Shown: piece by piece, positions 282 to 29,589 of the stretch
How positions within the stretch are numbered: position 1 is the stretch's first letter
Layout: each line of letters starts with the position of its first letter
From: an uncultured Alphaproteobacteria bacterium
GTDB taxonomy: Bacteria; Pseudomonadota; Alphaproteobacteria; UBA7985; CAJQQZ01
DNA: 64,000 nucleotides
Assembly: GCA_905480575.1 (NCBI GenBank)
Contig: CAJQQZ010000032.1
Location: forward strand, 1-64,000
Direction: 5' to 3'
Notes under the pieces: model-generated
Databases searched by the model: none
Told to the model about the DNA's origin: nothing
The model's input: the letters and a program-made list of their open reading frames with translations, nothing else
Translations under genes and position numbers: made by a program

Positions 282-1118
282 CTACAGTTCTATTGTCATA
301 CCTTCTCGCGCGAATGAAGAGCCCGGCATGGCCGCATCTAACAACAAATCCATCGCTTCCAATTGCCTATCGGTTCTAGTGATTTCATGATGAAAAGCAA
401 TCATCCTCTTCACGCCGGCCGATTTGCACAACTCTACACCAGCATTCCAAGTGGAATGCCCCCAACCGATACGCTCCGCGAACTCTTCTTCAGTGAAGCA
501 GCTGTCGTAGATCACCAGATCACTGTCTTTAATCAGATGAGCAATCGTTTGATCTACTTCCCCAGCAACATGTTCCGTATCTGTGATGTAGCAGAAGGAC
601 CGACCATGGTAGTCGATCCGAAAACCTGTCGCTTCTCCTGGGTGATTGAGTTTACAAGTCGAAACCTTAATCTCTTCGTTTTCCAGTTGAAGGGCATCAC
701 CGGCCTTAAAGCCGCGGTACTCAAACCGACCTGGAAACACTTCTGTTGTAACCGGGAACAGAGGTGGTGACACCATCTTGTCAATGTGGCTTTTCACAGT
801 TTCGCCATCAATATGCCCAGCCCAGATGCGCAAGGTGGCAGAATTCTTAAATAAGGGCGCAAAAAACATTAAACCACAAAGGTGATCAGCATGAGAATGA
901 GTAAGAAAGAGGTTAAAATCCTCTTGCTCAAGCGAAACAAGGGACCGGCCCAGCGGCATCAACCCCGAACCACCATCCAGAATGATGACTTCATCGCCAC
1001 AACGAACCTCGACACAAGCCGTATTTCCGCCATAGGCAAACATTTCCGGGTCCGGTATGGGCAAACTGCCTCTCACACCCCAAAAACGAAGGCTAAACAG
1101 TGGTCTTGCATTGGTCAT
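282..1118 (-). CDS. MBL-fold metallo-hydrolase (COG1235/phosphodiesterase-like)
   Basis: A metallo-beta-lactamase-fold protein of about 278 residues. It begins with the FWGVRGSLPIP / YGGNTACVEV signature of the PhnP/cNMP-phosphodiesterase-like branch and carries the dinuclear metal motif HSHADH near residue 75, further His/Asp ligands at NHPGEATGF and ITDTEH, and GHSTW and AFHHE towards the C-terminus. The active site looks intact, so a hydrolase acting on a phosphodiester or similar small molecule is likely; the substrate is not readable. It is the last gene of a minus-strand group with a CNB-domain protein and a pseudo-ABC exporter, which makes a cyclic-nucleotide link attractive but unproven. 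ATG at 1118 is chosen; the frame can be extended to TTG at 1127. Neither has a strong Shine-Dalgarno. Confidence 0.85.
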   Translation of the reverse strand: MTNARPLFSLRFWGVRGSLPIPDPEMFAYGGNTACVEVRCGDEVIILDGGSGLMPLGRSLVSLEQEDFNLFLTHSHADHLCGLMFFAPLFKNSATLRIWAGHIDGETVKSHIDKMVSPPLFPVTTEVFPGRFEYRGFKAGDALQLENEEIKVSTCKLNHPGEATGFRIDYHGRSFCYITDTEHVAGEVDQTIAHLIKDSDLVIYDSCFTEEEFAERIGWGHSTWNAGVELCKSAGVKRMIAFHHEITRTDRQLEAMDLLLDAAMPGSSFAREGMTIEL

Positions 1119-1149
1119 CAAAAGCAATCAATTCTTTGGAGGGTAAAAA

Positions 1150-1599
1150 CTAACCCTTGCGGCTCACGGCTGCAAGTTTGGCGTTGGTGTTTTCGATACG
1201 AGAAACAAGCTCTTTCATTACTTCCAATGCCATCATCGGAAACTCTTTGATCATATTGATAAATACATCGCGACTAATACGCAGCGCCTCAATTTCCTCA
1301 ACCGCTTCTATCGTGGCGGTTCTAGGCGTGTCGCTAATGATCCCCATTTCACCGACAAAGGATCCCTCGCCGATCGAGGCAACCGTAATGACTTGATCAC
1401 CACTGTTCAAATTAACGTTCGCTTGCCCTTTTAGGATAACATAGGCGGCATCGGAGTCATCGCCTTGACGAAACAGGATGTCTCCTGGAGGAAAGCTCAC
1501 GCGTTCGCTAGCAAAGGCCAAAAGCTTCAGCCGCGCTGCTTCAATGTTAGCAAACATCGGCACACGCTGTAAGGTCTGGACTTCCAATTTCAAACTCAA
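1150..1599 (-). CDS. Stand-alone cyclic nucleotide-binding domain protein
   Basis: A 149-residue protein consisting essentially of one CNB (Crp-like) beta-barrel domain. The phosphate-binding cassette is visible as FVGEMGIISDTPRTAT, keeping the Gly-Glu and the Arg-Thr-Ala that hold the cyclic phosphate, so nucleotide binding is plausible. Unlike Crp/Fnr regulators there is no C-terminal helix-turn-helix; the end is a short helix. It should therefore act by protein contact rather than on DNA. The TTG start at 1599 has a good Shine-Dalgarno (AAAGGA) and follows the upstream ABC gene by 27 bases, so co-transcription is expected. A class III cyclase of adenylate type lies about 15 kb away at 16868-18133. 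Confidence 0.88.
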   Translation of the reverse strand: MSLKLEVQTLQRVPMFANIEAARLKLLAFASERVSFPPGDILFRQGDDSDAAYVILKGQANVNLNSGDQVITVASIGEGSFVGEMGIISDTPRTATIEAVEEIEALRISRDVFINMIKEFPMMALEVMKELVSRIENTNAKLAAVSRKG

Positions 1600-1626: not shown

Positions 1627-4425
1627 TCATGCCGCCACCAAAGCCGCATAAGAGCCTCGCTTAGCTTTGAGCTCTGCCGGCGAGCCTTGCTCAACTATTT
1701 TACCATCTTCAAGATAGGCAACATAGTCAAACTCCTCAGCCAGTTCAGGCGATTTTAACACAGAAATGACCCCAAAGTCTTTCCTGTCTTCACGTATTCT
1801 GTGAATAATATCTCTTTCAAGTCGTTCGCTCAGTACAGACGTCGCTTCATTCAAAATCAAAAGGTCGGGCCTTTTTAGAAGGTTTCTAGCTAAAGCTGTC
1901 TGCACTCTCTGTACTGCAGAAAGTTGTTTCCCGCCAGATCCAACATTAAACTGCAGTCCAACTTGATAGACTTCATCAAGCAATCCCAATTTGTCGAAAA
2001 TTTCTGAGAACAGTTTTTCCACTTTGGACTGCACGCCAGATTGCCCTGGCCCAACACGTCCAAAAAGCACGTTATCCTGAAGGCTCGCTTCGCTATTGTA
2101 TCGGACCGGGTCATAGAACTCGACAAACTCGTGATCATCTTCGCTAATGTTATCCGCGAAGAATTTGCGTGCCCAAACAATTTTGTCTGTTAACTCATCG
2201 CTTAGGAGACCTAAACGATGGCGTGGTTCAACATACATGAATGGCAGGCTGAGCAACATTCGACGATCATCTTTTGAAAGACTATTGTGTCCCGCGTTGT
2301 TCCATCTTCCAACGATCTTCTCATAATCACCAAGGTCATCTGAAGAAATAAATGAAAACTGCCCAAAAAGTTCATGTCCAGGCGGTAGACCTTCGAAAAT
2401 TTCCACCATCGTCTCAGCGATTGTCACGCCCATTTGTAGCAAAGGCCGCCGCAGCTTTGACGTCCTCAGCACTTCACGGATGTAGGGGTCTCCAGCGAGA
2501 TTTTTTTCTTTGAACCTGTCCCCGACAGGTGTGCCAAACAACAGGTTTTCACCAATGGATGTGTTTTTGTTATAAACGTCAGGGTCGAAGGCTTCGATCA
2601 AATCCGTCATACCCTGATCTCTGAGTAACTCACGCATGAGCACTCTTGCCTCCAGGAATTGCTCGGATAACTCGGGCGAGTTGCCAGCATCTATCTTCCC
2701 ACGAAGTCCAAAACCGTAAACGTCTCCGTCCAATTGTACAATTTTCATCACGCGCAAGACTTGATCTTCGATGTCTTCTGGCCCGCTGGCACCCGCAGAA
2801 TCATAGTCGATCCAATCGGCATTGATGTCATCAAGTGAACTGCCGGTTCTGCGCGCCAACACAAATTCAGTTTTCCTGTTGACCAGTTCTTGTTGATTGT
2901 AGCTTGCCTCTTTCAATGGACGGTGTTTCAACCCGTAAACTAAATTGTCAAAGAGTGTTCCTTGAAACATAACGGCTTCTGGCCCAAGATATGAGAAACG
3001 CCGGCCGCTGATGGCCTCCGGCGTATCTTCCAAAACATGCCCCGCAATGTTTATTCTGCCACTATCCGGCCATTCGAAGCGTGCCATCAAACGACCGAAT
3101 GCTTCCTTGCCTCCGCCCAAAGGCCCAACGATGGCGATGTGCGTTTTAAAGGGTTGCTCCAAGTTGAGCGCCATTAACAAGGGTGGGCCACCGGATTTGT
3201 CATTCACCGTAACATTAGAGAGTTTAAGCATACCGTCTAGAACTTCGTCTGTACCCAGATTTGGATCTTGCAATTCCGCAGGCATAAGGCCGTCAGGATC
3301 AAACTGGTTGATGACCTGTTCGTACTTAATCTGGACGTCCAAACGTCGTTGATCCCAATCAATCAACTCTTTGATAGGAGACGGTAGGTCTTTGTATGCC
3401 GCTATGACTGCAACTAATTGTCCGATGTCCAATCGACCAGTAATCGCAAAATACCCGCCAACCAAATAGAACAGGAATGGCGTTACCTGCGCCAAGAAGT
3501 TGTTCATAAACTTCACGGCAAACTTTCGTTTGAAAATTGCGTAACGCAAACCAAAAATCACGCCTAACCGGGCCGAAACTTCCGCTCGTTCATAGTTTGA
3601 AGTGTCATGAACATGGATCACAGTGACGCCATCAACCACTTCGCCCACACGCCCTGCGAGTTCACGGGCAGCCAGTTGTCTTTGCTTACCTAAGATCAAC
3701 AGTCGACGTCTAAGACGTGGTATGATGGCCGTTTGCACCGCGACAATACCACCGGCAATCAGCCCCAACCAAAAGCTTTGCACAACGATGAAGGCCATAG
3801 CTGTGATCGCTTGCCCACCCAGAAAGACAGGTTGAACAAAAGCATCACCAATAAAGCCACCCAAGGGTTCAACTTCATCTTTGATCATCGTTGCCGTTTC
3901 AGCAGATTTCACATTTTTCATATGAAAGGGTGGGAAACGCAAGACTCTCTCAAACAAGGAATAACGCAAGCGACGAAGCATACGCTCCCCCATCGCGCCC
4001 TTGGAAAGGTTAATGTAGAACTTGAACCCACCGTTGATGAAGACAAAAGCTAAGAACAAAAGGCACAGACTGATGAGATAGGGAATTTGTTCCAGCATTA
4101 TCCCACTGGAAAGCTGAAAACTCTGTCCGCCTAAAAACTCAGGCAAACCCAAATTTATCTCAAAGAAAGGGGCCTTCTCTGTTCCGTCTTGAAAGGCCTC
4201 GCCCTGGATAGCCTGATTGACGATCAGCTTCGGGACGGTCAAGGAATAGAAATAGAACGGCAGTGAAATCAAGACGACAGACAGCACTGTAATTTGTTCT
4301 TTTCGCGAATGATGCCAGACGTATTTGAAAAGATTTCTTTCCATTGAAGAAAGCGGCCCCCTAAAAGCGTGGATTCCAGAATAGAGTCTAACGCCAATTT
4401 TCTTAGTCTGGCCTACACGATCCAT
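1627..4425 (-). CDS. ABC exporter-like protein with degenerate NBD and large repeat-bearing insertion
   Basis: An exporter-type fusion of about 930 residues, far longer than the usual 570-620. Residues 45-345 form a type I ABC transmembrane domain; the nucleotide-binding domain starts near 400. Its motifs are damaged: Walker A is GPLGGGKE (Ser/Thr replaced by Glu442), the signature is LSAVQ (836-840) instead of LSGGQ, Walker B is LLILNE (Asp to Asn860), and the H-loop His is replaced by Lys (about 892). About 340 residues separate Walker A from the signature, and the post-Q-loop pattern occurs three times: TLFDNLVYG (491-499), SIGENLLFG (624-632), SLQDNVLFG (782-790). A regulatory or scaffold role is as likely as transport. 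Start is uncertain: ATG 4425, TTG 4428 or Met29 (4344). Numbering here counts from TTG 4428. Confidence 0.85.
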   Translation of the reverse strand: MDRVGQTKKIGVRLYSGIHAFRGPLSSMERNLFKYVWHHSRKEQITVLSVVLISLPFYFYSLTVPKLIVNQAIQGEAFQDGTEKAPFFEINLGLPEFLGGQSFQLSSGIMLEQIPYLISLCLLFLAFVFINGGFKFYINLSKGAMGERMLRRLRYSLFERVLRFPPFHMKNVKSAETATMIKDEVEPLGGFIGDAFVQPVFLGGQAITAMAFIVVQSFWLGLIAGGIVAVQTAIIPRLRRRLLILGKQRQLAARELAGRVGEVVDGVTVIHVHDTSNYERAEVSARLGVIFGLRYAIFKRKFAVKFMNNFLAQVTPFLFYLVGGYFAITGRLDIGQLVAVIAAYKDLPSPIKELIDWDQRRLDVQIKYEQVINQFDPDGLMPAELQDPNLGTDEVLDGMLKLSNVTVNDKSGGPPLLMALNLEQPFKTHIAIVGPLGGGKEAFGRLMARFEWPDSGRINIAGHVLEDTPEAISGRRFSYLGPEAVMFQGTLFDNLVYGLKHRPLKEASYNQQELVNRKTEFVLARRTGSSLDDINADWIDYDSAGASGPEDIEDQVLRVMKIVQLDGDVYGFGLRGKIDAGNSPELSEQFLEARVLMRELLRDQGMTDLIEAFDPDVYNKNTSIGENLLFGTPVGDRFKEKNLAGDPYIREVLRTSKLRRPLLQMGVTIAETMVEIFEGLPPGHELFGQFSFISSDDLGDYEKIVGRWNNAGHNSLSKDDRRMLLSLPFMYVEPRHRLGLLSDELTDKIVWARKFFADNISEDDHEFVEFYDPVRYNSEASLQDNVLFGRVGPGQSGVQSKVEKLFSEIFDKLGLLDEVYQVGLQFNVGSGGKQLSAVQRVQTALARNLLKRPDLLILNEATSVLSERLERDIIHRIREDRKDFGVISVLKSPELAEEFDYVAYLEDGKIVEQGSPAELKAKRGSYAALVAA

Positions 4426-4428
4426 CAA

Positions 4429-4501: not shown

Positions 4502-5839
4502 ATGGATTGGGCCTATGGCTCGAAAAACAGCACGGGGTTAACCGTGGAAGAAAAAACACACCGCTCCTGGTCACGTCGCAGTCCGCGCGTCCTGCTCTAT
4601 AGTCACGATACTTTTGGGTTGGGACACTTGCGTCGCAGCCGTGCTGTCGCGCATGCCTTGATCAAAGAGAGACCCGACCTTTCGATCCTCATTGTGTCCG
4701 GTTCTCCTATTATTGGGAACTTCGATTTCGGTGACGGCATCGACTATGTCCGTATCCCAGGGGTCACAAAGTTGCCGTCAGGTGAGTATTCTACTCTGAA
4801 CCTGAATCTAGAGATTGATGAGGCCACCGCCCTTAGAGCGTCGATCATTCGCCAAACCGCGGAAACATTTGATCCAGATATATTCATCGTCGATAAAGAG
4901 CCGACTGGATTCAGGGGCGAGGTCATTGATACGCTCGTCACCCTAAAACGCCGCGGCTGCCATTTGGTCCTTGGCCTTAGAGACATCATGGACGAACCGA
5001 GCTTGCTCATTCCCGAATGGCAGCGCAAGAACGCTATCGACTCTCTTGAGCGTTTGTATGACGAAATCTGGATCTACGGCCTGAAAGATATCTACAACCC
5101 ATTAAGCGGCTTCCAGCTGACCAGCGAAGTCGAAGAAAAGATTCGCTATACTGGCTATCTCAAGCGGTCTATGCCCAGCGAACCCACAATAGCGAACTGG
5201 CCCGAGGTGACGGAAAAGGATTTCATTCTCGTCACGACGGGTGGCGGTGGCGATGGCTATGATCTTATCGACTGGGTACTGTCTGCATATGAGACTGACG
5301 AAACGCTCGATGTCCCCTCTCTGCTTGTCCTAGGTCCTTTCATGCAAAGTGACTTACGCTCCCAACTCATGACTAGGATCGACAAACTCGAGCATGTTCA
5401 CGCGATGGTTTTCGACGCAAAGATTGAATACCTCGAGGAGAAAGCTGTCGGTGTGGTCGCAATGGGCGGATACAATACTTTCTGCGAAATTCTATCCCTG
5501 GACAAAAGAGCCATTATTGTCCCTCGTACCGCTCCTCGTTTAGAGCAATACATAAGAGCTTTCCATGCCTCCCGCTGGGGGTTGGTTCAAATGCTTGTGG
5601 ACGAAAGCCAATGCGGCGGCGCTGCTCGTGATCCAATGGACATGGCCAAAGCTCTTAAAAAGCTCCCTAAACAAAAGAAACCGTCACAAGTGACAATTCC
5701 TGGTTTGCTTGACGGACTAAGCCGTATCAAAGAATTGGCTGCGCCTTGGTTACCGCCAAAACTCAAAGACAAAAACTCTGAAAAAACTGAAGCGACATAC
5801 AGCGGCAACGTACAGCCGTTGAGACGCCCTGCAAGATAG
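4502..5839 (+). CDS. MurG/GT28-like glycosyltransferase (COG4671 type)
   Basis: A 445-residue predicted glycosyltransferase with a GT-B fold. The N-terminal domain opens with HDTFGLGHLRRSRAVAHAL, the glycine-rich acceptor-side loop typical of MurG-like enzymes, and the C-terminal domain has TTGGGGDGYDLI followed by MGGYNTFCEIL and PRLEQYIRA, matching the nucleotide-sugar-binding region. There is no signal peptide or membrane helix, so it should work on the cytoplasmic side. The donor and acceptor cannot be read. It heads a run of six plus-strand genes with small gaps or overlaps, and a distant paralogue is encoded at 8866-10008. The first 25 residues before the Rossmann strand are unusual, so a downstream start is possible. 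Confidence 0.85.
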   Translation: MDWAYGSKNSTGLTVEEKTHRSWSRRSPRVLLYSHDTFGLGHLRRSRAVAHALIKERPDLSILIVSGSPIIGNFDFGDGIDYVRIPGVTKLPSGEYSTLNLNLEIDEATALRASIIRQTAETFDPDIFIVDKEPTGFRGEVIDTLVTLKRRGCHLVLGLRDIMDEPSLLIPEWQRKNAIDSLERLYDEIWIYGLKDIYNPLSGFQLTSEVEEKIRYTGYLKRSMPSEPTIANWPEVTEKDFILVTTGGGGDGYDLIDWVLSAYETDETLDVPSLLVLGPFMQSDLRSQLMTRIDKLEHVHAMVFDAKIEYLEEKAVGVVAMGGYNTFCEILSLDKRAIIVPRTAPRLEQYIRAFHASRWGLVQMLVDESQCGGAARDPMDMAKALKKLPKQKKPSQVTIPGLLDGLSRIKELAAPWLPPKLKDKNSEKTEATYSGNVQPLRRPAR

Positions 5840-5881
5840 TCTATTCAGCCAACACCCTAACCATCTTGGATCTTGTCGAGT

Positions 5882-7138
5882 ATGCCCGCTTCGGTCGAAT
5901 CATCAGCTCACGTCGCCTTCATCTTGAAAGGTTACCCCAGACTTTCTGAAACTTTCATATCGCAAGAAATCTATGCCCTCGAAGAACGGGGCATAAAGCT
6001 GTCAATTTGGTCACTCAGGCACCCAACTGACAAAACCCGCCATGAATTGCATGACCGTATTGCGGCGCCTGTGCATTACCTTCCGGAGTATCTCTATCAG
6101 GAACCCTGGCGCTTCATCAAAGCTTTGGCCTGGTCGTTTGCTCAAATCAGATTTTGGTTGCTGTTGTCTGTATGGTTGAAGGACCTCTTTAGAGATTTAA
6201 CACCAAACAGAGGGCGGCGTTTTGGTCAAGCTTTAGTCATGGCGGCCGAGTTACCTGCTAACGCTCGTCATTTACACGCTCACTTCCTGCATACACCCTG
6301 TTCTGTCACAAGATACGCCGCTATTCTGCTTAGAAAGCCCTGGAGTTTTTCGGCTCATGCGAAGGATATCTGGACGTCTCCGGCATGGGAAAAGAAGGAA
6401 AAGGTAGCTGAAGCAGAATGGGGAGTTACCTGCACGCAGCTTGGTGCAGAACATCTACAGTCGCTTTGCCCAGCTGATCAGTCTGGCAAAATGAAGCTGG
6501 TTTATCATGGCCTCGACTTAGATCGTTTCCCCGAAGCTCCTGCGAAAAAAGAAACAAGAGATGGTAGTGATGAGCAGGCGCCTGTTCAATTGCTTTCTGT
6601 TGGACGTGCGGTGGAGAAGAAAGGCTACCCAGACCTGCTCATTGCTCTGGCGCGACTGCCGAAGGAATTACATTGGAATTTGACACATATTGGTGGCGGC
6701 AATGACCTCGACAAGCTGAAGTCTCAGGCAGTCGAGCTCGAACTAGGCGATAGGGTTCAATGGCTTGGGGCTCAACCTCATTCTCAAGTCCTTGAATGTC
6801 TCCGTACTTCTGACATCTTCGTCTTGCCGAGCCGAAAAGGCGCAGATGGCGATATGGATGGCTTGCCCAACGTACTGATGGAAGCAGCCAGTCAGAAGTT
6901 GGCTTCTGTTTCAACCGACTTCTCATCCATTCCAGAATTCTTAGAAGATGGTGTCAGCGGATTGTTGGTCCCTCCTCAAGCGCCAGAAGCGCTTTTTTCA
7001 GCTCTCGAGAAGATGATTACGAACCCAAAGATACGCACTGCTTTTTCTGAAGCGGCCCATCGGAGATTAAAAGACTCTTTTCAGATGCATCAGTCTATTG
7101 AAGATCTGGTGAACCGTTTCCAGCCTTACTTTCGATAG
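5882..7138 (+). CDS. GT4-family glycosyltransferase
   Basis: A GT-B glycosyltransferase of about 418 residues. FILKGYPRLSETFISQEI at the N-terminus is the opening typical of colanic-acid/exopolysaccharide-type group 4 transferases; HAHFLHTPCSVTRYAA and SFSAHAKDIW belong to the acceptor domain. The C-terminal donor domain has LSVGRAVEKKGYPDLL and the E(x7)E-type element around GLPNVLMEAAS, with ASVSTDFSSIPEFLEDGVSGLLV following as in GT4. A hydrophobic patch near residues 85-105 may be membrane-associated. The reading frame can start at TTG 5873; ATG 5882 is chosen. It is the second gene of the glycan operon. Confidence 0.87.
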   Translation: MPASVESSAHVAFILKGYPRLSETFISQEIYALEERGIKLSIWSLRHPTDKTRHELHDRIAAPVHYLPEYLYQEPWRFIKALAWSFAQIRFWLLLSVWLKDLFRDLTPNRGRRFGQALVMAAELPANARHLHAHFLHTPCSVTRYAAILLRKPWSFSAHAKDIWTSPAWEKKEKVAEAEWGVTCTQLGAEHLQSLCPADQSGKMKLVYHGLDLDRFPEAPAKKETRDGSDEQAPVQLLSVGRAVEKKGYPDLLIALARLPKELHWNLTHIGGGNDLDKLKSQAVELELGDRVQWLGAQPHSQVLECLRTSDIFVLPSRKGADGDMDGLPNVLMEAASQKLASVSTDFSSIPEFLEDGVSGLLVPPQAPEALFSALEKMITNPKIRTAFSEAAHRRLKDSFQMHQSIEDLVNRFQPYFR

Positions 7139-7179: not shown

Positions 7180-8274
7180 ATGAAAGTCGCTTTCTACGCG
7201 CCACTAAAATCCCCAAATCACCCAACACCTTCGGGTGACAGAACTCTCGCACGTCAACTTATGTCTTGCCTTTCTGACTTTTGTGAAGAGGTCACTTTGG
7301 CTTCTGAGTGCAGAAGTTTAGAGAAGAGAGGCGACGAACAGCGGCAAAAACAACTCATCGATTCCGCTGAAACTGAAACCGCACGGCTGTTGGAAACTTA
7401 TCAGAACCAGGGCCAGACACCTGACATCTGGTTTACTTATCATCTTTACTACAAAGCGCCTGACCTGATCGGTCCGTCGGTCTCAAAGGCATTAAACATT
7501 CCTTATGTTGCTGCGGAGGCTTCACGCGCACCAAAACGAGCAACTGGCCCTTGGCAACTCTTTCATAAGAAAGCTGAGGCAGCAATTGATCATGCCTCAA
7601 TCATTTTCCACCTCACTAAGAGAGACCGAGAATGCCTTGAACTTGTTCGTCCAGAACACCAAAGACTGGTCCACTTGCCGCCCTTCATTGAACCACCTGA
7701 TGTGCCAAGCAGCCATGGATTGAAAGATAAAACTATTCGTTTGATAACAATCGCGATGATGAGGTCAGGCGACAAAATGGCCTCATACACAATCCTCGCT
7801 AACACCTTAACCGAGCTGGCGAACCATAACTGGATCCTCGACATTATCGGCGATGGTCCTTCATCTGACGAAGTTCATCAGCTTTTCAAGCCCTTTAGCT
7901 CCCGAGTTAAGTTCCTCGGAAAAATAGAAGACATCAACCAAAAGAATGCCCATCTGAGCTCATCAGACATTTTTATCTGGCCAGGCATTAATGAGGCTTT
8001 TGGCTTGGTTTATCTGGAAGCTCAAGCATTGGGTCTGCCTGTCATAGCACTCGATACCGCCGGTGTGCCGGAAGTTGTTAGCGAAGGCGAAACAGGATTG
8101 TTGGCTGATCCGTTGAAACCTGCACAAATGGCTCAAAACTTGAACCGCCTCATGGAAGATAACGCACTCAGGTCACAGCTATCAAGGCGCGCTACAACTC
8201 ACATCCAAAGCCAACACACAAAAGAAAAAGCCACAGCTATTCTTCGTGAAAGCCTGGAACATTTGAAATCATGA
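7180..8274 (+). CDS. GT4-family glycosyltransferase
   Basis: A 364-residue group 4 glycosyltransferase. The N-terminus (MKVAFYAPLKSPNHPTPSGD) is the nucleotide-fold start with the conserved PSGDR loop of this subfamily; the donor domain shows FLGKIEDINQ, SDIFIWPGINEAFGLVYLEA with the catalytic E(x7)E pattern, and VIALDTAGVPEVVSEGETG. It is soluble and probably cytoplasmic. Its stop overlaps the next start in an ATGA arrangement (8271-8274), implying translational coupling to the histidine phosphatase. The sugar transferred cannot be assigned from sequence. Confidence 0.88.
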   Translation: MKVAFYAPLKSPNHPTPSGDRTLARQLMSCLSDFCEEVTLASECRSLEKRGDEQRQKQLIDSAETETARLLETYQNQGQTPDIWFTYHLYYKAPDLIGPSVSKALNIPYVAAEASRAPKRATGPWQLFHKKAEAAIDHASIIFHLTKRDRECLELVRPEHQRLVHLPPFIEPPDVPSSHGLKDKTIRLITIAMMRSGDKMASYTILANTLTELANHNWILDIIGDGPSSDEVHQLFKPFSSRVKFLGKIEDINQKNAHLSSSDIFIWPGINEAFGLVYLEAQALGLPVIALDTAGVPEVVSEGETGLLADPLKPAQMAQNLNRLMEDNALRSQLSRRATTHIQSQHTKEKATAILRESLEHLKS

Positions 8275-8873
8275 TAGAAATCTTTGTTGTTCGCCATGCC
8301 GTCACGGATTGGAACACAGAAAGACGTTTCCAAGGCCATAGCGACATCCCAATCAATGGTGCTGGCCGGTCAGAATTAGCCAAGTACCGTCTCCCTTCTT
8401 CCTGGGAAAGCGCTCTCTTATTGGCAAGTCCTTTGATTAGGGCAAGAGAAACGGCCCAAATACTCAGTGGACGGGAGCCAGAAATCGAACCAGCATTGAT
8501 GGAGATGAATTGGGGGCTTTGGGAAGGAAAAAAATACACAGACCTTAAGGCCGAACTTGGTGAAATTTTGACAAAAAACGAAGACCGCGGGCTCGACTTT
8601 AGACCAGAGCAAGGAGAAAGCCCGAGGGATGTCTGTGACCGGTTACAACTTTGGTTTGAAGCACTCGTTAATCAAAAACAAAAGCGCATCGTTGCTGTCA
8701 CTCACAAAGGGATAATACGAGCTATGATGGCTCTCGCTTTTGATTGGGAAATGATGGGTAAGGCGCCAGTGAAATTGCAACGCTATGCTGGACACCATTT
8801 CTCAATCAGTCAGGATGGACAGTTACGTAACATCGCCATGAACCTTGTCTTGAAAGAGAACTTAAGTGACTGA
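8271..8873 (+). CDS. Histidine phosphatase family protein (phosphoglycerate mutase-like)
   Basis: A 200-residue branch 1 histidine phosphatase. The catalytic motif appears as VVRHAVTDWN with the phospho-accepting His at residue 9, followed by RRFQGHSDIPINGAGR; the acid residue lies in MEMNWGLWEG and the second catalytic His in VTHKGIIRAM. Length and motifs fit small-molecule phosphatases such as alpha-ribazole, glucosyl-3-phosphoglycerate or sugar phosphatases. Being translationally coupled between two glycosyltransferases suggests it dephosphorylates a glycosylated intermediate or a sugar phosphate of the same pathway; this is inference. The 3' end overlaps the next gene by 8 bases. Confidence 0.88.
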   Translation: MIEIFVVRHAVTDWNTERRFQGHSDIPINGAGRSELAKYRLPSSWESALLLASPLIRARETAQILSGREPEIEPALMEMNWGLWEGKKYTDLKAELGEILTKNEDRGLDFRPEQGESPRDVCDRLQLWFEALVNQKQKRIVAVTHKGIIRAMMALAFDWEMMGKAPVKLQRYAGHHFSISQDGQLRNIAMNLVLKENLSD

Positions 8874-10008
8874 AAACAAACCTCTTTCCGTTTTCATCTA
8901 TGTCACACACCTCCTGGGATCAGGACATCTTTCTCGCGCATTGGCTATTGCTCAAGCTTGCCATGACGACGGAATGGTTGTCACTTTGGCCACCGGCGGC
9001 TTTCCAACACACAAATTGAAAGACCGAGCATTTCGGATCGTTCAATTACCCCCATGTAGGATCAAGGGGACTGATTTCTTAACTCTCTTTGATGAATACG
9101 ACCAGGTCGTCGACGAAGAATGGAAAATCGGGCGTGCCAAAGAACTTGAGACAGCATTTAAGGATGCTTCACCTGACGTGATCATAACTGAGCTTTTCCC
9201 GCTTGGGCGTCGTCAAATGACATTCGAACTTGACCCGCTTCTGGACGCCTGCAAAATAGCTCGTCCCAAACCTATGGTTTTTTGTTCCGTCAGAGACATC
9301 TTGCAGCCTCCAAGCAAACAAAAGAAAATTACTCGCGCTGAGCAGTACCTAGAGGATTATTACGGCGGTTTGCTAGTTCACGGCGACCCTAGAATCGCAC
9401 CCCTGGGGCAATCTTTCCCGATGAAAGCTGAGGTATTAGCTTTAGCGCAATATACCGGCTTTATTTTTGACGGAGAAAAGCCAGAGGAAAACAAGGAACG
9501 CAACCAAGAAATCATTGTTTCCGCGGGTGGTGGGGCAGCTGGTGAAAGCCTATATCGTATTGCGGCTGAAGCCTCTCAACTGGGACCAGATGGCTTTGTT
9601 TGGCATTTGTTAATTGGCCGTGGCCTTCCTCAAGAGTTCTTTGAAGAGATCACGAGCAAGGCACATGCAAACCTGATTGTTGAGTGGGCAAGGTCAGATT
9701 TTCCGGATCTTTTGGCCAGCGCAGCGCTTTCGATCAGTCAAGCGGGATACAATACGATGCTGGACATTGTGAATGCCGACGTCAATTCAATTACTGTCCC
9801 ATTCTCCGACGGCGGCGAAGTTGAACAAAACTTAAGGGCGAAGCTTTTCGAAAAAGCCGGTTACACAACCGTTGTAAAGTCTGAAGAATTAAGTGCGGCA
9901 AAACTCCTTCTATCTGTCACTGAAGTTCTAAACGCCCCCAAACAAGAAAGACTGCCCTTGAATTTGGAAGGTGGGAAGGGAACTGTCGAAACGATCAAGA
10001 CCCTTTGA
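8866..10008 (+). CDS. MurG/GT28-like glycosyltransferase, second copy
   Basis: A 380-residue GT-B enzyme resembling the first gene of the operon in architecture. YVTHLLGSGHLSRALAIAQ is the glycine-rich loop; VSAGGGAAGESL and SISQAGYNTMLDIV with GGEVEQNLRA make up the donor-binding C-terminal half. Start is GTG at 8866, overlapping the phosphatase gene by 8 bases, so coupling is expected. Having two members of this uncommon family in one operon with two GT4 enzymes suggests a four-step glycan or glycolipid assembly line. No membrane segment is evident. Confidence 0.82.
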   Translation: MTENKPLSVFIYVTHLLGSGHLSRALAIAQACHDDGMVVTLATGGFPTHKLKDRAFRIVQLPPCRIKGTDFLTLFDEYDQVVDEEWKIGRAKELETAFKDASPDVIITELFPLGRRQMTFELDPLLDACKIARPKPMVFCSVRDILQPPSKQKKITRAEQYLEDYYGGLLVHGDPRIAPLGQSFPMKAEVLALAQYTGFIFDGEKPEENKERNQEIIVSAGGGAAGESLYRIAAEASQLGPDGFVWHLLIGRGLPQEFFEEITSKAHANLIVEWARSDFPDLLASAALSISQAGYNTMLDIVNADVNSITVPFSDGGEVEQNLRAKLFEKAGYTTVVKSEELSAAKLLLSVTEVLNAPKQERLPLNLEGGKGTVETIKTL

Positions 10009-10024
10009 AATTCAAGGACGCACA

Positions 10025-10786
10025 ATGTTTGACTGGACCTCTCTTGCTTCTGAATTAGATCGATGGAGCACAGAAGGAAGAACTGCGAAGTTTTGGTGGC
10101 GAGACGACGATGCCATCGAAGCAACTCCTTCGCTAGATAAGCTCCTAAGGCTAAGTGAAACGGCTAAAGTTCCAATCACGCTCGCTGTGATACCCGCCTT
10201 CGCCAACATAAGCCTAGCGCAAGTCACCGAACAACTCCCACAAGTTTCGATCGCTGTTCATGGATATTCTCACACAAACTACGCCCCAAAAGGCGAAAAG
10301 AAACTTGAATTAGGGACTCAACGGCCCACGGAAACCGTGATTGCAGAACTAACCGAAGGAAAAGCCATACTCGAAAAACTTTTCCCGAGAGGCTTTAACC
10401 AGGCCTTGGTTCCACCCTGGAACCGGATAGATCAAGAAATCATCGAGCGAATAGAGGAATTAGGCTTCACTGCGCTATCAACCTTTCAGCCAATAGGATC
10501 TGAACAAGCGACATCGGGTGTTTGCCAGGTCAACTGTCACATCGACCCAATCGATTGGCACGGGACCCGGTCTTTAGCTGATCCACAGAACCTTATCGCA
10601 TACATAAGCGCGCTCCTAGAGCGCCAAAGGCAAGGCACGATAGACAACCAGGAACCACTTGGCTTACTCACTCATCATCTTGTTCACGATGAAGCAATCT
10701 GGGCGTTCACCGAAGACTTCATCAAAACGATAGAAAATCACCCCTCAGCCAAATTTGTGATCGGTCTTGAGCGGCGAAACGTCTAA
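10025..10786 (+). CDS. Polysaccharide deacetylase-like protein (NodB-related)
   Basis: A protein of about 253 residues with a recognisable NodB-homology outline: WWRDDDA (the Asp-Asp metal/base motif), AVHGYSHTNYAP (the HxxxH-type metal motif) and LVPPWNRID. These match the motif 1-3 order of carbohydrate esterase family 4, though in variant form, so deacetylation of an N-acetyl sugar is likely but not certain. There is no signal peptide, so it would act on a cytoplasmic intermediate. ATG 10025 is preferred because AAGGACG lies just upstream; the frame itself extends to GTG 9971 inside the preceding gene. It closes the glycan operon. Confidence 0.78.
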   Translation: MFDWTSLASELDRWSTEGRTAKFWWRDDDAIEATPSLDKLLRLSETAKVPITLAVIPAFANISLAQVTEQLPQVSIAVHGYSHTNYAPKGEKKLELGTQRPTETVIAELTEGKAILEKLFPRGFNQALVPPWNRIDQEIIERIEELGFTALSTFQPIGSEQATSGVCQVNCHIDPIDWHGTRSLADPQNLIAYISALLERQRQGTIDNQEPLGLLTHHLVHDEAIWAFTEDFIKTIENHPSAKFVIGLERRNV

Positions 10787-10870: not shown

Positions 10871-12784
10871 ATGGTGAGTAGACGGATGGGTCCAATCCTT
10901 GAAGTCAATGGTCTGACGGTTTCTTTCAAAACCGACGCAGGCATTGTGAATGCGGTCAAGGGTATTTCCTTTGCGATTCCGCAAGGCAAAACTGTTGCCT
11001 TGGTTGGTGAATCTGGTTCCGGCAAATCTGTCAGTAGCCAGGCTATCATGGGCATTTTGCCCAAAGTCGGCAGTATCGAAGCGGGAGAAATCCTGTTCAA
11101 TGATCCTGACGATGGGCAACTTGCAATCGATATAGCCAGTTTGGATCAGGCATCGAGCGAAATGCGGGATCTTCAAGGCAGTCGCATTTCGATCATTTTC
11201 CAAGAGCCCATGACGTCACTATCGCCGCTTCATACGATTGGCGACCAAGTCACAGAGGCCCTCAAGCTTCATAAGTCTGTCTCCCAAGAAGAAGCCAACA
11301 CCGAAGCAGTAAAGATGTTCGAGCGTGTGGGTTTCCCCAACCCAGAGCGGGCTTTGACCACTTACCCCTTTGAGCTGTCAGGTGGACTTCGTCAAAGAGC
11401 GATGATTGCGATGGCGTTGATTTGTCGTCCAGCTCTCTTGATCGCCGATGAACCAACAACCGCGTTGGATGTGACAACTCAGGCGCAAATTCTTGAGCTG
11501 ATGCAGGAATTGCAGCGTGAGTTTGGAATGGCCATCTTGTTGATCACACACGATCTTGGCGTCGTTGCCAATATGGCGGACGAAGTCGTGGTTATGTATC
11601 ACGGCGAAATCATGGAACGCGGCGACCGCGAAACAATCTTTACAGACCCTCGTCATGACTATCTGAAGGCTCTTCTCAAGGCGGTCCCCCACTTCGATAT
11701 GGCGAAGGACGAGCGGCTGGTCCCCATTAGAGAAATAAAAACCAAGCCCGGTTCTTTTCTCATGGAACGAGCCTCAGAAGATAAGTTAGTCCCCAAACAA
11801 GGCGAAGATTTGATCCTTGATGTGAAAGGATTAAGCAAAACCTTCACGGCACGGTCAGGCTGGTTCAAAGGTGGTAGTGAGCGTAAAGTTTATGCCGTCA
11901 GCGAAGTAAATCTAAAAATAGAACGGGGGACGACACTCGGCCTCGTTGGTGAATCCGGTTGCGGAAAAACAACGTTGTCCAAAATGATCATGCGAGCCCT
12001 GTCACCCGATGAAGGGTCTGTTCTATACGACGATGGTCACGGTGGCGGCCCCAAAGAAGTCTGGGAACTGGCAGGCAAGGACCTCACTGCCTACCGTCAG
12101 AACGTTCAGTTTATTTTCCAGGACCCCTTTTCTTCGCTTAACCCACGGATGCCAGTTAATGAGATTCTATCCGAACCCTACAAAATTCATGGAATTGGAA
12201 ACGCGGACGAGCAGTATGAACGCGTAAAGGAGCTCATGGAGTTGGTTGGGCTGGATATCCGTTTCTTGCGGCGCTACCCACACTCGTTCTCTGGTGGTCA
12301 AAGGCAGCGGCTGGGGATTGCCCGTGCTTTAGCATTGAAACCTCAATTGGTTCTCTGTGATGAGCCTGTTTCGGCGCTTGATGTTTCTGTACAGGCTCAG
12401 GTTTTGAACCTGCTCAAGGATTTGCAAAAAGAACTCGGTCTCACTTATCTCTTTGTCTCGCACAACCTGGCCGTCGTAGATTACATAGCTGACACAATCG
12501 CTGTCATGTGCGCGGGCCACATCGTTGAGTACGCACCAAAAGACAAGCTCTTCCAGACACCTGTCCATCCATACACACAAGCCCTGTTGGCGGCGATACC
12601 CAGCCCCGACCTTGAACACCCTTTGGACTTCTCAAAGGTTGTTGCTGATCGCTTATCTAATCCAGCGGCATGGCCCGCACCATTTACCATTCAAACCGGC
12701 AAAGATCATCCTGCAATGATCGAAATAGAACCGGGACATTTCGTTCGCGCCACAGGTGCAATTGATATGAGGAAAGCATCCTAA
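10871..12784 (+). CDS. Dipeptide/oligopeptide-type ABC transporter, fused double ATPase
   Basis: A 637-residue protein with two complete ABC domains, as in GsiA and YejF. NBD1 has Walker A GESGSGKS (46-53), signature LSGGLRQR and Walker B LLIADEP; NBD2 has GESGCGKT, FSGGQRQR and LVLCDEP. The oligopeptide-transporter C-terminal extension (YAPKDKLFQTPVHPYTQALL) follows NBD2. Both sites look active. It powers the importer whose binding protein and two permeases come next, overlapping the binding-protein gene by one base (TAATG). Alternative starts are GTG 10874 or ATG 10886, just before the first beta-strand. Confidence 0.93.
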   Translation: MVSRRMGPILEVNGLTVSFKTDAGIVNAVKGISFAIPQGKTVALVGESGSGKSVSSQAIMGILPKVGSIEAGEILFNDPDDGQLAIDIASLDQASSEMRDLQGSRISIIFQEPMTSLSPLHTIGDQVTEALKLHKSVSQEEANTEAVKMFERVGFPNPERALTTYPFELSGGLRQRAMIAMALICRPALLIADEPTTALDVTTQAQILELMQELQREFGMAILLITHDLGVVANMADEVVVMYHGEIMERGDRETIFTDPRHDYLKALLKAVPHFDMAKDERLVPIREIKTKPGSFLMERASEDKLVPKQGEDLILDVKGLSKTFTARSGWFKGGSERKVYAVSEVNLKIERGTTLGLVGESGCGKTTLSKMIMRALSPDEGSVLYDDGHGGGPKEVWELAGKDLTAYRQNVQFIFQDPFSSLNPRMPVNEILSEPYKIHGIGNADEQYERVKELMELVGLDIRFLRRYPHSFSGGQRQRLGIARALALKPQLVLCDEPVSALDVSVQAQVLNLLKDLQKELGLTYLFVSHNLAVVDYIADTIAVMCAGHIVEYAPKDKLFQTPVHPYTQALLAAIPSPDLEHPLDFSKVVADRLSNPAAWPAPFTIQTGKDHPAMIEIEPGHFVRATGAIDMRKAS

Positions 12785-14685
12785 TGAATAAATTGACTTT
12801 GTCAGGGCTGGCGCTATCCAGCCTGCTACTGTTCTCCAATATTGCTTCAGCTCTCGAACTCGTCGAAACAACAACGTTGCAAGACGCCGTAGCCGCCGGT
12901 GAACTGCCCGCTGTGCAAGACCGCGTACCGAGCGAGCCTTACATTTCGGATCTCGCAGCAAAGGGTCAGGCTGTTGGTAAACATGGCGGCGAACTTAGAA
13001 CCCTCATTTCTAAAGCCAAGAGTGTTCGCTACATGGTTGTTTGGGGCTACGCTCGTTTGCTAGGCTATGACGAACAGTACAATCTTGTTCCGGACATCCT
13101 CAAAGCTGTGGACAACGAAGACAACAAAGTGTTCACATTGCACCTTCGTCCGGGCCATAAATGGTCAAACGGTGATCCATTCACAGCGGATGACTTCATC
13201 TACTATTGGAATGACGTTGCCAACAACGAGCTTACCAGTCCATCTGGCCCTCCAGCATTCATGGTCATTAACGGCGAACCCGCAACGGTCGAAAAAATCG
13301 ATGCTGTCACCGTGCGTTATAGTTGGAGCAGTTCAAATCCCAATTTCTTACCTTCATTTGCAAAAGCCCGCCCTCCGTTCATCTATCGCCCTTCAACTTA
13401 CCTGAAGCAGTTCCATGCTGACTATGTGGACGAAGCAAGCCTTACGGCTCAAATCGAAGAAGCCGGCGTTAGAAGCTGGGCAGCCCTCCATAACCGTAAA
13501 GACAATCTGTATAAGAACAACAATCCTGATTTGCCAACGCTACAGCCTTGGATGAATACAACAGCAGCACCTGCTAATCGTTTTATCATGAAGCGTAATC
13601 CTTACTTTCACCGCGTTGATTCGACTGGACAGCAACTGCCTTACATCGATCAAGTGACGATGAACGTCAGTTCAGGTGGCTTAATCTCAGCCAAAGCCAA
13701 TGCAGGTGAAACGGACCTCCAATCTCGCGGCCTTTCATTCTCAGACATCACTGTTCTTAAAGAAGGTGAAAGTCGCCACGGTTACAAAACCCATCTTTGG
13801 CCAGTCGCAAAGGCTTCTGAAATCGCGCTCTACCCGAATTTGAACAACACGGACCCTATGTGGCGCAAACTTCTGCGTGACAAGCGGTTCCGTTGGGCCT
13901 TGTCTCACGGCATTGACCGCAAGATCATTAACCGTTCAATCTTCTTTGGCCTTGCAAAAGAGTCCGCCAACACGTTGCTGCCATCAAGCCCGCTGTTCAA
14001 CCAAACACACGCAGATTCCGGTGCAGCACTTGATCTGGAAAAAGCCAACGCGTTGCTTGATGAAATCGGTCTAACAGATCGAGACTCAAATGGTTTCCGT
14101 AAACTTCCAAACGGCGAAACCCTAGAAATCATTGTAGAAACAGCTGGTGAATCAAGCCAACAGGTCGATGTATTGCAGTTGGTTTCAGAGACTTGGAAAG
14201 AAATTGGCGTCAAACTGTTCATTAAGCCATCTGACCGCACGGTTCTCAGAAACCGCTCCTATGCAGGCGAAACGGTGATGACAGTCTGGTCAGGTTGGGA
14301 CAACGGCATCGCTTCTGCCGACATGAGCCCAGGTGAACTCGCCCCAACGCGCCAAGACAACCTAGGTTGGCCAATGTGGGGGCAGTTTTACGAAACCAAA
14401 GGCCAAAACGGTGAAGCCCCTGACATAGCCTCCGCGCAGCGTTTGATGGAACTCAACAAAGCCTGGCAAGAAGCCTCCGACAAGTCCGCAAAAGAAGCAG
14501 CATGGAACGAAATGCTAGCGATCCATGCTGACGAACTCTTCATCATTGGTATCGTATCTGGTTCTCGCCAACCAGTGGTGGTTGCTGGCAATCTGAAGAA
14601 CGTGCCGGAAGTGGCCCCATACAGTTGGGACCCTGGCGGTCAATGGGGTGTCTGCCATCCTGATGAGTTCTTCTTCTCAAACTAA
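12784..14685 (+). CDS. ABC transporter substrate-binding protein, family 5
   Basis: A 633-residue periplasmic binding protein of the peptide/opine/nickel cluster. The first 23 residues form a clear signal peptide ending NIASA, with no lipobox. Family 5 marks are visible: HLRPGHKWSNGDPFTADDF, FRWALSHGIDRKIINRSIFFG and the C-terminal pattern near WNEMLAIHADELFIIG. It is on the long side for the family, like YejA-type proteins, which bind larger peptides or peptide conjugates. The ligand is not readable. Translation is coupled to the ATPase gene by a one-base overlap, and a permease follows after 18 bases. Confidence 0.92.
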   Translation: MNKLTLSGLALSSLLLFSNIASALELVETTTLQDAVAAGELPAVQDRVPSEPYISDLAAKGQAVGKHGGELRTLISKAKSVRYMVVWGYARLLGYDEQYNLVPDILKAVDNEDNKVFTLHLRPGHKWSNGDPFTADDFIYYWNDVANNELTSPSGPPAFMVINGEPATVEKIDAVTVRYSWSSSNPNFLPSFAKARPPFIYRPSTYLKQFHADYVDEASLTAQIEEAGVRSWAALHNRKDNLYKNNNPDLPTLQPWMNTTAAPANRFIMKRNPYFHRVDSTGQQLPYIDQVTMNVSSGGLISAKANAGETDLQSRGLSFSDITVLKEGESRHGYKTHLWPVAKASEIALYPNLNNTDPMWRKLLRDKRFRWALSHGIDRKIINRSIFFGLAKESANTLLPSSPLFNQTHADSGAALDLEKANALLDEIGLTDRDSNGFRKLPNGETLEIIVETAGESSQQVDVLQLVSETWKEIGVKLFIKPSDRTVLRNRSYAGETVMTVWSGWDNGIASADMSPGELAPTRQDNLGWPMWGQFYETKGQNGEAPDIASAQRLMELNKAWQEASDKSAKEAAWNEMLAIHADELFIIGIVSGSRQPVVVAGNLKNVPEVAPYSWDPGGQWGVCHPDEFFFSN

Positions 14686-14703
14686 TCTGAACGGAAGCTA
14701 TTT

Positions 14704-15720
14704 GTGGCTCGTTACCTTTTCTTTCGCCTATTGACCATGTTTGGCACCCTACTGGTGATCAGCTTCTTGATGTTTGTCGTCATTAAGCTGCCGCCGGGGG
14801 ATTTCCTATCGAATCAAATCGCTGAACTGAGATCTCAAGGCGAAAGTGCCTCTATTGAAAAGGCAGAGTTCCTTAGACAGCAATATGGCTTAGACCGGCC
14901 ATTCTTCGCGCAGTATTTCTCGTGGTTGGGTGTGTGGCCCGGACCCAATGGGTTTTCCGGCCTTCTCCAGGGCGATTGGGGTTGGTCTTTCGAGTATGAA
15001 CGCCCAGTGGATCAAGTTGTTGGCGATACTTTGTCTCTGACAATTCTTGTTAATCTTGCGACGATTCTCTTTATTTACATCGTAGCACTGCCTATTGGCA
15101 TCTACTCTGCGACCCGACAGTATTCAATCGGGGACTATGGCATTACGCTAGTCGGCTACATCGGTTTGGCAACCCCAAACTTTTTGCTTGGTTTGATCAT
15201 GCTGTTTTATGCCAACCGTTGGTTCGGCGTTTCAATCGGTGGTCTGATGGATCCGGTGTTTGAAGATCAACCTTGGTCCCTCGCCAAAATCTGGTCGGTT
15301 CTTGCACACTTAGTTGTGCCTACAATCGTTATTGGCACGTCGGGAACAGCCGCAATGATCCGGCGACTAAGGGCTAACCTTTTGGACGAATTGCAGAAGC
15401 AGTATTACACGACTGCAAAGTCTAAGGGCCTCCGCCCTACCAAAGCTCTGGTGAAATACCCATTGCGGATGGCTCTAAACCCATTCGTAGCCGATATCGG
15501 CAACCTCCTTCCCTCCATGGTGTCAGGTTCGGTTTTGGTTTCCCTGGTGCTTAGCCTGCCGACAGTTGGGCCAATCTTGCTAGATGCCTTGTCTTCTCAA
15601 GACCAATACTTGGCTGGTTTTATATTGATGTTCACAGCAGTACTGACCGTGATTGGAATGATGGTTTCCGACGTTTTGTTGGCAATTCTTGATCCACGCA
15701 TCCGGTTCTCGGCCAGATAG
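14704..15720 (+). CDS. ABC transporter permease (DppB/OppB/YejB type)
   Basis: A 338-residue inner-membrane permease beginning at GTG 14704. TM1 is at the N-terminus (FRLLTMFGTLLVISFLMFVV), a large extracytoplasmic loop follows, and five further helices come after residue 110. The cytoplasmic coupling (EAA) loop is visible as YYTTAKSKGLRPTKAL followed by the conserved proline/asparagine region. It pairs with the next gene to form the membrane channel of the peptide-type importer. Confidence 0.92.
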   Translation: MARYLFFRLLTMFGTLLVISFLMFVVIKLPPGDFLSNQIAELRSQGESASIEKAEFLRQQYGLDRPFFAQYFSWLGVWPGPNGFSGLLQGDWGWSFEYERPVDQVVGDTLSLTILVNLATILFIYIVALPIGIYSATRQYSIGDYGITLVGYIGLATPNFLLGLIMLFYANRWFGVSIGGLMDPVFEDQPWSLAKIWSVLAHLVVPTIVIGTSGTAAMIRRLRANLLDELQKQYYTTAKSKGLRPTKALVKYPLRMALNPFVADIGNLLPSMVSGSVLVSLVLSLPTVGPILLDALSSQDQYLAGFILMFTAVLTVIGMMVSDVLLAILDPRIRFSAR

Positions 15721-15726
15721 GAGCTG

Positions 15727-16902
15727 ATGATGACAGACAAAAAGAAACAAGCTCCGAACGACGATCATTACGTCAATCCCGCACCCTTTGACCCCTACAC
15801 TGTCGAGGCTATTTCTCCAGAGCAGGAAAAGTTCTACCGCGCCTCCTCTCTTCAAATGATGTGGTGGAAGTTTCGCCGTCATAAATTGGCAGTTTGGTCA
15901 GGCGTCATTTTGGTGCTGTTATACTTTTCGATCCTGATTAGTGAGATTATTGCCCCTTACGGCCTGAACAGTCGCAACGCAGACTTTCTCTATTCACCTC
16001 CTCAATCCATTCATTGGTTCCACGAGGGATCGTTCCAAGGTCCGTTCGTCTACGGCAACAAAAGCGAACTGAACATGGAAACGTTCAAGTGGGAAACCAA
16101 GGTTGACACGACGAAGGTGGACAAATTGCGTTTCTTCTGCCGCGGAGATTCTTACAAATATCTAGGTATGTTTGATGGTGATTTCCATTTGGTATGCCCA
16201 GCAAAGGACGGAACATTCTTCTGGCTCGGAACTGACCGACTAGGCCGAGACATGTTCTCACGAATTGTCTATGGCACTCGAATATCACTCACAATCGGGT
16301 TGATCGGCATCACTATATCCTTCATCGTGGGTCTGACCCTGGGTGGCCTCGCGGGCTATTTCGGTGGCTGGATCGATAACGTCGTACAGCGCTCTATTGA
16401 GATCATACGTTCATTGCCAGAACTGCCCTTGTGGTTGGCTCTCTCGGCGGCTTTACCAGCGAACTGGTCCCCCATACTCGTCTTCTTCGGGATAACGATC
16501 ATATTAGGCTTGCTCGATTGGCCAGGGTTAGCCAGGGCAGTACGTTCAAAATTGCTGGCACTGCGGGAAGAGGACTATGTCAAAGCAGCTGAGCTGATGG
16601 GCGCAAAACCTAAACGCATCATTGCCCGGCACCTACTTCCAAACTTCATGAGCCACTTGATCGCGTCTGCAACCCTTTCCATTCCGTCCATGATCTTAGG
16701 TGAAACCGCTCTCTCATTCTTGGGGTTGGGGCTTCGACCACCTGTGACATCTTGGGGCGTTTTACTCAACGAGGCACAAGATTTAACAGCAATTCAAATT
16801 TACCCCTGGATTATGACGCCAATGATACCAGTTATTATAGTGATCTTGGCATTTAACTTCCTAGGAGATGGATTGCGTGACGCCGCAGACCCGTACCGAT
16901 AA
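15727..16902 (+). CDS. ABC transporter permease (DppC/OppC/YejE type) with long periplasmic loop
   Basis: A 391-residue permease. After an N-terminal cytoplasmic segment and TM1 (about 56-76) there is an unusually long extracytoplasmic stretch of about 90 residues before FWLGTDRLGRDMFSRIVYG, the typical OppC motif preceding TM2. The EAA loop is YVKAAELMGAKPKRIIARH. YejE-like permeases of large-peptide importers share the extended loop. The gene's last 35 bases overlap the start of the adenylate cyclase gene in another frame, linking the transporter and signalling gene in one transcript. Confidence 0.92.
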   Translation: MMTDKKKQAPNDDHYVNPAPFDPYTVEAISPEQEKFYRASSLQMMWWKFRRHKLAVWSGVILVLLYFSILISEIIAPYGLNSRNADFLYSPPQSIHWFHEGSFQGPFVYGNKSELNMETFKWETKVDTTKVDKLRFFCRGDSYKYLGMFDGDFHLVCPAKDGTFFWLGTDRLGRDMFSRIVYGTRISLTIGLIGITISFIVGLTLGGLAGYFGGWIDNVVQRSIEIIRSLPELPLWLALSAALPANWSPILVFFGITIILGLLDWPGLARAVRSKLLALREEDYVKAAELMGAKPKRIIARHLLPNFMSHLIASATLSIPSMILGETALSFLGLGLRPPVTSWGVLLNEAQDLTAIQIYPWIMTPMIPVIIVILAFNFLGDGLRDAADPYR

Positions 16903-26215: not shown

Positions 26216-26232
26216 GACAGAACCTCAAGAGA

Positions 26233-27311: not shown

Positions 27312-27407
27312 AAGGCTCTTTCAACTGAGGTATTGGTGATCTGTGCCAAGGAGAGCAACTACTTCATTCGTCCCTGTTTTCAAGTAGAAATGATTGCTGA
27401 CTTAACG

Positions 27408-27444: not shown

Positions 27445-27466
27445 TTCTTTCTAAACATTTGAGACT

Positions 27467-28954: not shown

Positions 28955-28963
28955 GATCCGCTC

Positions 28964-29518: not shown

Positions 29519-29539
29519 GAAACTTCTCTGAATAAAGTT

Positions 29540-29571: not shown

Positions 29572-29589
29572 GAAAGTAGACAGGCTAGC

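Follow-up and report, generated by a model that had tools for sequence, protein, structure and literature searches.

What defines an ABC transporter is its ATPase. In TAP, TM287/288, CFTR and SUR, catalytic residues have been lost and nucleotides are used asymmetrically or for regulation, and these proteins keep one consensus site. The NHLM and bacteriocin exporters that are linked to cyclic-nucleotide-binding (cNMP) proteins keep their ATPase motifs.

Here we describe pABC, a pseudo-ABC exporter encoded in the window, by which we mean the whole stretch of 64,000 nucleotides from an uncultured alphaproteobacterium that was analysed. Like the type IV exporters MsbA, Sav1866, ABCB1 and PCAT1, pABC contains PF00664 and the start of PF00005 and finds its best sequence and fold matches among them, but its four ATPase motifs are broken family-wide and it carries about 295 extra residues. 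It shares the loss of catalytic residues with TAP, TM287/288, CFTR and SUR, but it retains no consensus site and lacks a linked partner gene. As in TIGR03896 (cyc_nuc_ocin) and the NHLM exporters of TIGR03796 and TIGR03797, a Crp-like domain accompanies an exporter and is not a DNA-binding regulator; in contrast to those systems, there is no peptidase or NHLM leader system at pABC. The corresponding models remained below their cut-offs, with scores for pABC of 129 versus 853 (TIGR03796) and 105 versus 709 (TIGR03797), and for the cNMP protein of 48 bits versus 161 (TIGR03896). The best NCBIfam model for pABC was MsbA, at 173 versus a cut-off of 602. A search of the literature for a degenerate ABC exporter with a cNMP domain or a duplicated helical subdomain found no description of one.

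pABC has an exporter fold and four broken ATPase motifs

The features of the locus are collected in Table 1. The real start of pABC may lie 28 codons further in than the open reading frame suggests, since Met29 (about position 4344 of the window) is a Met in 105 of the 124 aligned members and residues 1-27 were disordered in the AlphaFold2 model; Met29 is thus the likely true start. Pfam matched ABC_membrane (PF00664) to residues 117-342 (E 5e-12) and PF00005 to residues 421-510 (E 8e-11), the latter covering only the first part of the ATPase domain, while residues 829-931 resemble the end of the nucleotide-binding domain (NBD) of ABCB4. In the AlphaFold2 model the loop between TM1 and TM2 is beta-structured (about residues 86-112), and confidence was high for most of the cytoplasmic region and low at residues 186-198 and 350-364. 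A fold search with the whole protein matched exporters with TM-scores of at most 0.38 by query length, and such low scores are expected for a monomer with a large extra mass and these low-confidence regions. PF00664, the model and the fold search agree on a type IV exporter membrane fold, and PF00005 and the resemblance to ABCB4 show an NBD of ABC ancestry. The fold is a known one, and the pABC family clearly derives from type IV exporters.

Table 1. Features of the pABC locus, in positions of the window
Feature	Position	Strand	Remarks
MBL-fold metallo-hydrolase, HxHxDH	282..1127	-	PF12706
cNMP-binding protein, 149 aa, stand-alone, Crp-like	1150..1599	-	PF00027, E 9e-23
pABC (pseudo-ABC exporter)	1627..4428	-	ORF 933 aa; 932 aa from ATG at 4425
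pABC unit gamma	1813..2145	-	residues ~762-872; hhalign, motif positions
pABC unit beta	2131..2616	-	residues ~605-766; hhalign
pABC unit alpha	2605..3006	-	residues ~475-608; hhalign, shuffled controls, DSSP
pABC broken Walker A, GPLGGGKE	3103..3126	-	residues 435-442
pABC transmembrane domain, six-helix exporter type	3253..4344	-	residues 29-392; Pfam ABC_membrane, AlphaFold2 secondary structure
GTa, MurG-like glycosyltransferase family	4502..5839	+	divergent from pABC; conserved neighbour, weak TIGR00661 match
GTb, GT4 glycosyltransferase	5873..7138	+	PF00534, conserved neighbour
GTc, GT4 glycosyltransferase	7180..8274	+	
Histidine phosphatase family protein	8271..8873	+	
GTd, GT28-C glycosyltransferase	8866..10008	+	PF04101, conserved neighbour
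Polysaccharide deacetylase	9971..10786	+	PF01522, conserved neighbour
Opp/Yej-type importer	10871..16902	+	often conserved beside pABC
Class III nucleotide cyclase	16868..18133	+	PF00211, E 2e-14; overlaps importer operon end

The original prediction had named a broken Walker A (GPLGGGKE), a broken signature (LSAVQ), a broken Walker B (LLILNE) and a Lys at the H-loop position, and all four were confirmed, at residues 435-442, 836-840 and 856-861 and at Lys892. Its estimate of about 340 residues between Walker A and signature was too low: the count is 393, compared to 96-101 in the canonical exporters of the loci compared, which leaves an excess of about 295 residues.

The helical-subdomain segment is repeated

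The segment following the Q-loop had been predicted to recur three times, and its cores TLFDNLVYG, SIGENLLFG and SLQDNVLFG were confirmed at residues 491-499, 624-632 and 782-790. Also present were the related pieces FDPDVYN (614-620) and YDPVRYN (772-778) and the degraded signature-like stretch LSEQFLEARVLMREL (residues 587-601). The repeated unit is longer than nine residues and spans 60-100. Unit alpha contains the Q-loop strand, TLFDNLVYG, an ADWIDY linker, helices and a degraded signature helix (585-604). Unit beta contains FDPDVYN, SIGENLLFG, helices and an MGxxIAETMVE..LPPGH segment, and unit gamma contains YDPVRYN, SLQDNVLFG, helices and the broken signature and Walker B. In the AlphaFold2 model, beta and gamma share one arrangement: a strand, the Asn-helix, a short strand and then helices.

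Profile-profile comparison with hhalign gave a probability of 98.6 (E 6.5e-16) for beta (605-700) against gamma (762-872), 94.4 for alpha against gamma and 92-93 for alpha against beta, whereas the membrane domain of pABC, used as a control, gave less than 1. The inter-unit scores of 84.7, 46.1 and 42.5 were set against 60 column-shuffled controls each, which reached maxima of 21.9, 19.8 and 18.3; over all controls the probability never exceeded 14.3 and the score never exceeded 21.9. Of 20,000 shuffled versions of residues 505-830, only 6 contained a second-best hit for TLFDNLVYG that reached the quality of the observed one. Canonical exporters matched gamma with a probability of 99.4 and alpha with 96.5. 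The match of beta to canonical exporters (E 1.9e-4) was far weaker than its match to gamma, which indicates an internal duplication. The profiles thus support a tandem triplication of the helical-subdomain segment. Unit alpha of the compact relative L111 has about 100 residues, which is the normal length from Q-loop to signature; L114, from the same divergent branch, also has a compact unit alpha.

The insert comprising alpha and beta (residues 472-772) was modelled less well alone (pTM 0.59) than in the full protein, and the excised model matched no solved fold (best E 0.8); the fragment is probably a poor folding unit. An insert unrelated to ABC folds would have contradicted the original prediction, and this objection applies in part, as the excised model by itself does not reveal an ABC-like insert; kinship with ABC proteins is shown by the profile homology.

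The motifs are lost across a family under purifying selection

A pABC match was found in 132 of 385 sampled alphaproteobacterial genomes, so that roughly a third of alphaproteobacterial species appear to have the gene. In a draw from the phylum 31 of 399 genomes contained pABC, all of them Alphaproteobacteria, and a second draw found it in none of the 44 listed genomes of other classes. Some contig records labelled Betaproteobacteria carry pABC, and these are probably MAG labels. A scan of genome contigs gave at least 577 confirmed relatives, of which the best 80 were kept; the alignments comprised 86 close members and 124 members in total.

The motifs scored were Walker A (GxxGxGK[ST]), Walker B with the catalytic Glu, the LSGGQ signature and the H-loop His. 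Walker A and LSGGQ were broken in every one of the 124 aligned members; 108 had none of the four motifs and 16 had exactly one. The Walker A Lys441 was kept in 53 of 124 (43%) and replaced by Ala or Arg in 57, and a Ser or Thr followed the Lys in 9. Glu861 was kept in 51 of 124, with Arg at this position in 31. The homologue alignment proposed with the original prediction shows a loss of motifs in all 124 members, some of which keep single residues such as Lys441 or Glu861. Homologues with intact motifs in the same gene position would have spoken against the prediction, and neither intact relatives nor intermediates were present among the 124. Judged by its motifs, the label 'ATP-driven ABC transporter' does not suit pABC, and 'ABC transporter ATP-binding protein' and similar names, the only ones given to it in the public records examined, are probably misleading. 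The predicted loss of normal ATP hydrolysis accordingly stands as far as the motifs go, and by extension ATP turnover itself would be lost.

Other parts of the protein are strongly conserved. The insert measured 321-326 aa in all 86 aligned close members. Across the 124 members, the central Asn of each unit (Asn495, Asn628 and Asn786) was at least 95% conserved, and Trp539, Arg595, Arg738 and Arg754 were nearly invariant. There were 54 positions with at least 95% conservation, and 33 of them lie within residues 45-364. In 26 independent pairs, dN/dS was 0.106 for the membrane domain, 0.136 for the insert and 0.165 and 0.114 for the two parts of the NBD core. pABC is therefore an old family under purifying selection, and conservation with a low dN/dS despite the motif loss argues that the protein is functional and works without the canonical ATPase residues.

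A cyclic-nucleotide-binding domain is linked or fused to pABC

The gene directly downstream of pABC encodes a cNMP protein in which Pfam recognised neither an HTH nor any other DNA-binding domain, and in the window it has the cassette GE..PRTA. Of 126 loci, 119 combine pABC with a cNMP domain: in 105 a separate cNMP gene adjoins pABC, and in 14 the domain is fused C-terminally to pABC. Pfam confirmed three of these fusions. The Arg-containing cassette was retained in 103 of 120. No cNMP gene was nearby in the remaining 7 loci, five of which form one divergent branch (L111, L112, L113, L114 and L117). In L117 a CHASE3 cyclase lies 0.3 kb from pABC.

The cyclase of the window has adenylate-type motifs (FADLRGFT, VLKFMGDG and LDFTVIG) and lies 12.4 kb from pABC in the divergent operon; the genome has 17 PF00211 matches. 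A class III cyclase was located within 5 kb of pABC in 13 of 126 loci and in the flanks examined of 36. The cyclic nucleotide pool may be a general one, since 113 of 126 loci had no cyclase within 5 kb. The cyclase architectures near pABC vary by lineage and include soluble, CHASE2, CHASE3 and ferredoxin-type 2Fe-2S forms. One genome (G736) has a single PF00211 match, at a distance of 0.4 kb from pABC, and in L126 and L127 the fused pABC-cNMP gene is preceded by a cyclase about 0.1 kb upstream. Cyclases combining PF00111 and PF00211 directly follow the cNMP gene in three loci (L096:361-2115, L122:3179-5311 and L123:2868-4664), and these 2Fe-2S-fused enzymes could be redox-sensing cyclases. Rhizobial cyclases, among them L136:760-2109 and those of Mesorhizobium L053 and L083, have Ser in place of the purine-binding Lys (IMSFIGDG) and Thr in place of the Asp (LTFSVFG). 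The nucleotide product of these enzymes is uncertain because the usual purine-specificity residues are absent.

An MBL-fold hydrolase is encoded beside the cNMP protein in the window and in some other loci, and HxHxDH was found in 30 of 31 homologues. It scored 37 bits against NF041851 (cut-off 400), and from its sequence it might conceivably be a cyclic-nucleotide phosphodiesterase.

pABC lies beside a glycan cluster

The divergent operon encodes four glycosyltransferases, the histidine phosphatase, the deacetylase and the importer, followed by the cyclase. The importer consists of a fused double ATPase with intact motifs, a solute-binding protein and two permeases. Flanks of at least 9 kb on both sides were available for 44 loci, of which 40 kept GTa near pABC, 43 GTd, 36 the deacetylase and 41 the importer ATPase; the counts are not independent, as many of the loci are closely related. 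Elsewhere in the window, positions 26001-30000 have an AT skew of about 0.22, and this region appears ordinary, with minus-strand genes for a large multi-pass membrane protein and a periplasmic binding protein that resemble a tripartite tricarboxylate transporter.

The same gene set was found on pSymB of Sinorhizobium meliloti, between the nodPQ sulfation and purine-catabolism regions. With smb21248 as the aminotransferase (PMC5498481), counting genes from it places pABC at approximately smb21267-smb21269, the tags being inferred. According to the report on the phazolicin-protecting polysaccharide (PPP), the PPP cluster is smb21252-smb21271 and nine genes in this interval are needed for the surface polysaccharide (PMC10128002). 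The same text states that smb21252 and smb21265 mutants are about eight-fold more sensitive to phazolicin and that a mutant in cyaA, an adenylate cyclase encoded elsewhere, is also more sensitive (PMC10128002). Gene order would put pABC, the cNMP protein, GTa, GTb and the deacetylase of S. meliloti in this interval, and we infer that pABC belongs to the PPP cluster as it is delimited there. The broken ATPase, the triplication and the cNMP protein are not discussed in the available part of that report, in which the glycan is uncharacterised (PMC10128002). In the cluster of S. meliloti, a gene for a polysaccharide lyase (PF14099; L136:2118-3086) separates the cyclase from the importer.

Membrane-domain-only paralogues occur in copper operons

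Paralogues of about 400 aa that consist of the membrane domain only were observed in L108 (4531-5730), L110 (4540-5781, minus strand), L109 and L139 (7791-9050). Several genera, with Azospirillum sp. TSA2s as one example, encode them after CopA multicopper oxidase/CopB in operons for copper resistance, and no open reading frame with a Walker A was present in the stretches examined. Their existence shows that a pABC-type transmembrane domain can persist without a nearby NBD, and it would fit a role in the membrane for which no NBD has to be encoded close by.

Discussion

The loss of the ATPase motifs, the linkage to a cNMP sensor and the position beside a glycan cluster together suggest that a second messenger, and not ATP hydrolysis, controls pABC. 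Our tentative reading, to which we assign a probability of about 0.45, is that pABC descends from an ABC exporter and now serves a surface glycan as a gate in the membrane, a flippase or an exporter subunit, under the control of a cyclic nucleotide. A local cyclase would produce cAMP (or cGMP), which would be bound by the cNMP protein. The loaded cNMP protein would then dock on the NBD of pABC and the transmembrane domain would change its state, thereby turning glycan movement or assembly on or off. The enlarged NBD would act as a docking and relay platform and would no longer provide the drive from ATP hydrolysis, and the MBL hydrolase may terminate the signal. ATP may still bind to pABC or be hydrolysed in an unconventional manner. 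The original prediction had guessed at a nucleotide sensor, scaffold or gated channel, and the gene context does point to a nucleotide sensor, although the sensor would be the cNMP domain and not the broken ATP site. A bolder proposal is that pABC represents a class of second-messenger-gated transporters derived from ABC exporters, in which hydrolysis was dropped, the helical subdomain was triplicated as a relay, and a dedicated cyclase and cNMP protein control the passage of glycan; we regard this as doubtful.

It is unlikely that pABC pairs, as the degenerate half of a heterodimer, with an ATP-active half-transporter encoded elsewhere in the genome. Heterodimers with a degenerate site such as TAP and TM287/288 are well known (reviewed in PMC7756269), and the genome that encodes pABC has canonical exporters that are possible partners. 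However, no canonical half-exporter was conserved next to pABC in the loci compared. Furthermore, the known degenerate halves retain what one consensus composite site requires, whereas a subunit without Walker A, Walker B and signature would leave neither of the two sites intact.

We find it similarly hard to favour a membrane scaffold without transport, which would recruit the glycosyltransferases and the deacetylase and be switched by the cNMP protein. The large conserved cytoplasmic domain under purifying selection and the tight linkage of pABC to cytoplasmic-type glycosyltransferases would fit such a role, but the transmembrane domain is the most constrained part of the protein (dN/dS 0.106 and 33 of the 54 conserved positions), which is more than an anchor needs.

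Slow ATP hydrolysis through non-canonical residues, with the extra units supplying replacement contacts, is less probable still. The pABC of the window keeps G-G-K-E and Glu861, and the Asn of each unit and Trp539, Arg595, Arg738 and Arg754 are nearly invariant, but a catalytic site would not tolerate Ala or Arg at position 441 in 57 of 124 members or Arg in place of Glu861 in 31. A decaying transporter or pseudogene with chance repeats, which the damage to all four motifs might suggest, can be dismissed given the constant insert of 321-326 aa in 86 members, a dN/dS of about 0.1-0.17 and repeats that score far above shuffled controls.

A family that occurs in rhizobial symbionts among others, and that has given up all its catalytic motifs but retained and elaborated its other parts, would show how an ABC fold can run without hydrolysis. 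pABC is also a candidate for the direct control of a transporter through a second messenger, with a stand-alone cAMP-type receptor as the sensor. In Sinorhizobium, where gene order places it in the PPP cluster, pABC would be a testable part of the uncharacterised polysaccharide that shields the bacterium from an antimicrobial peptide.
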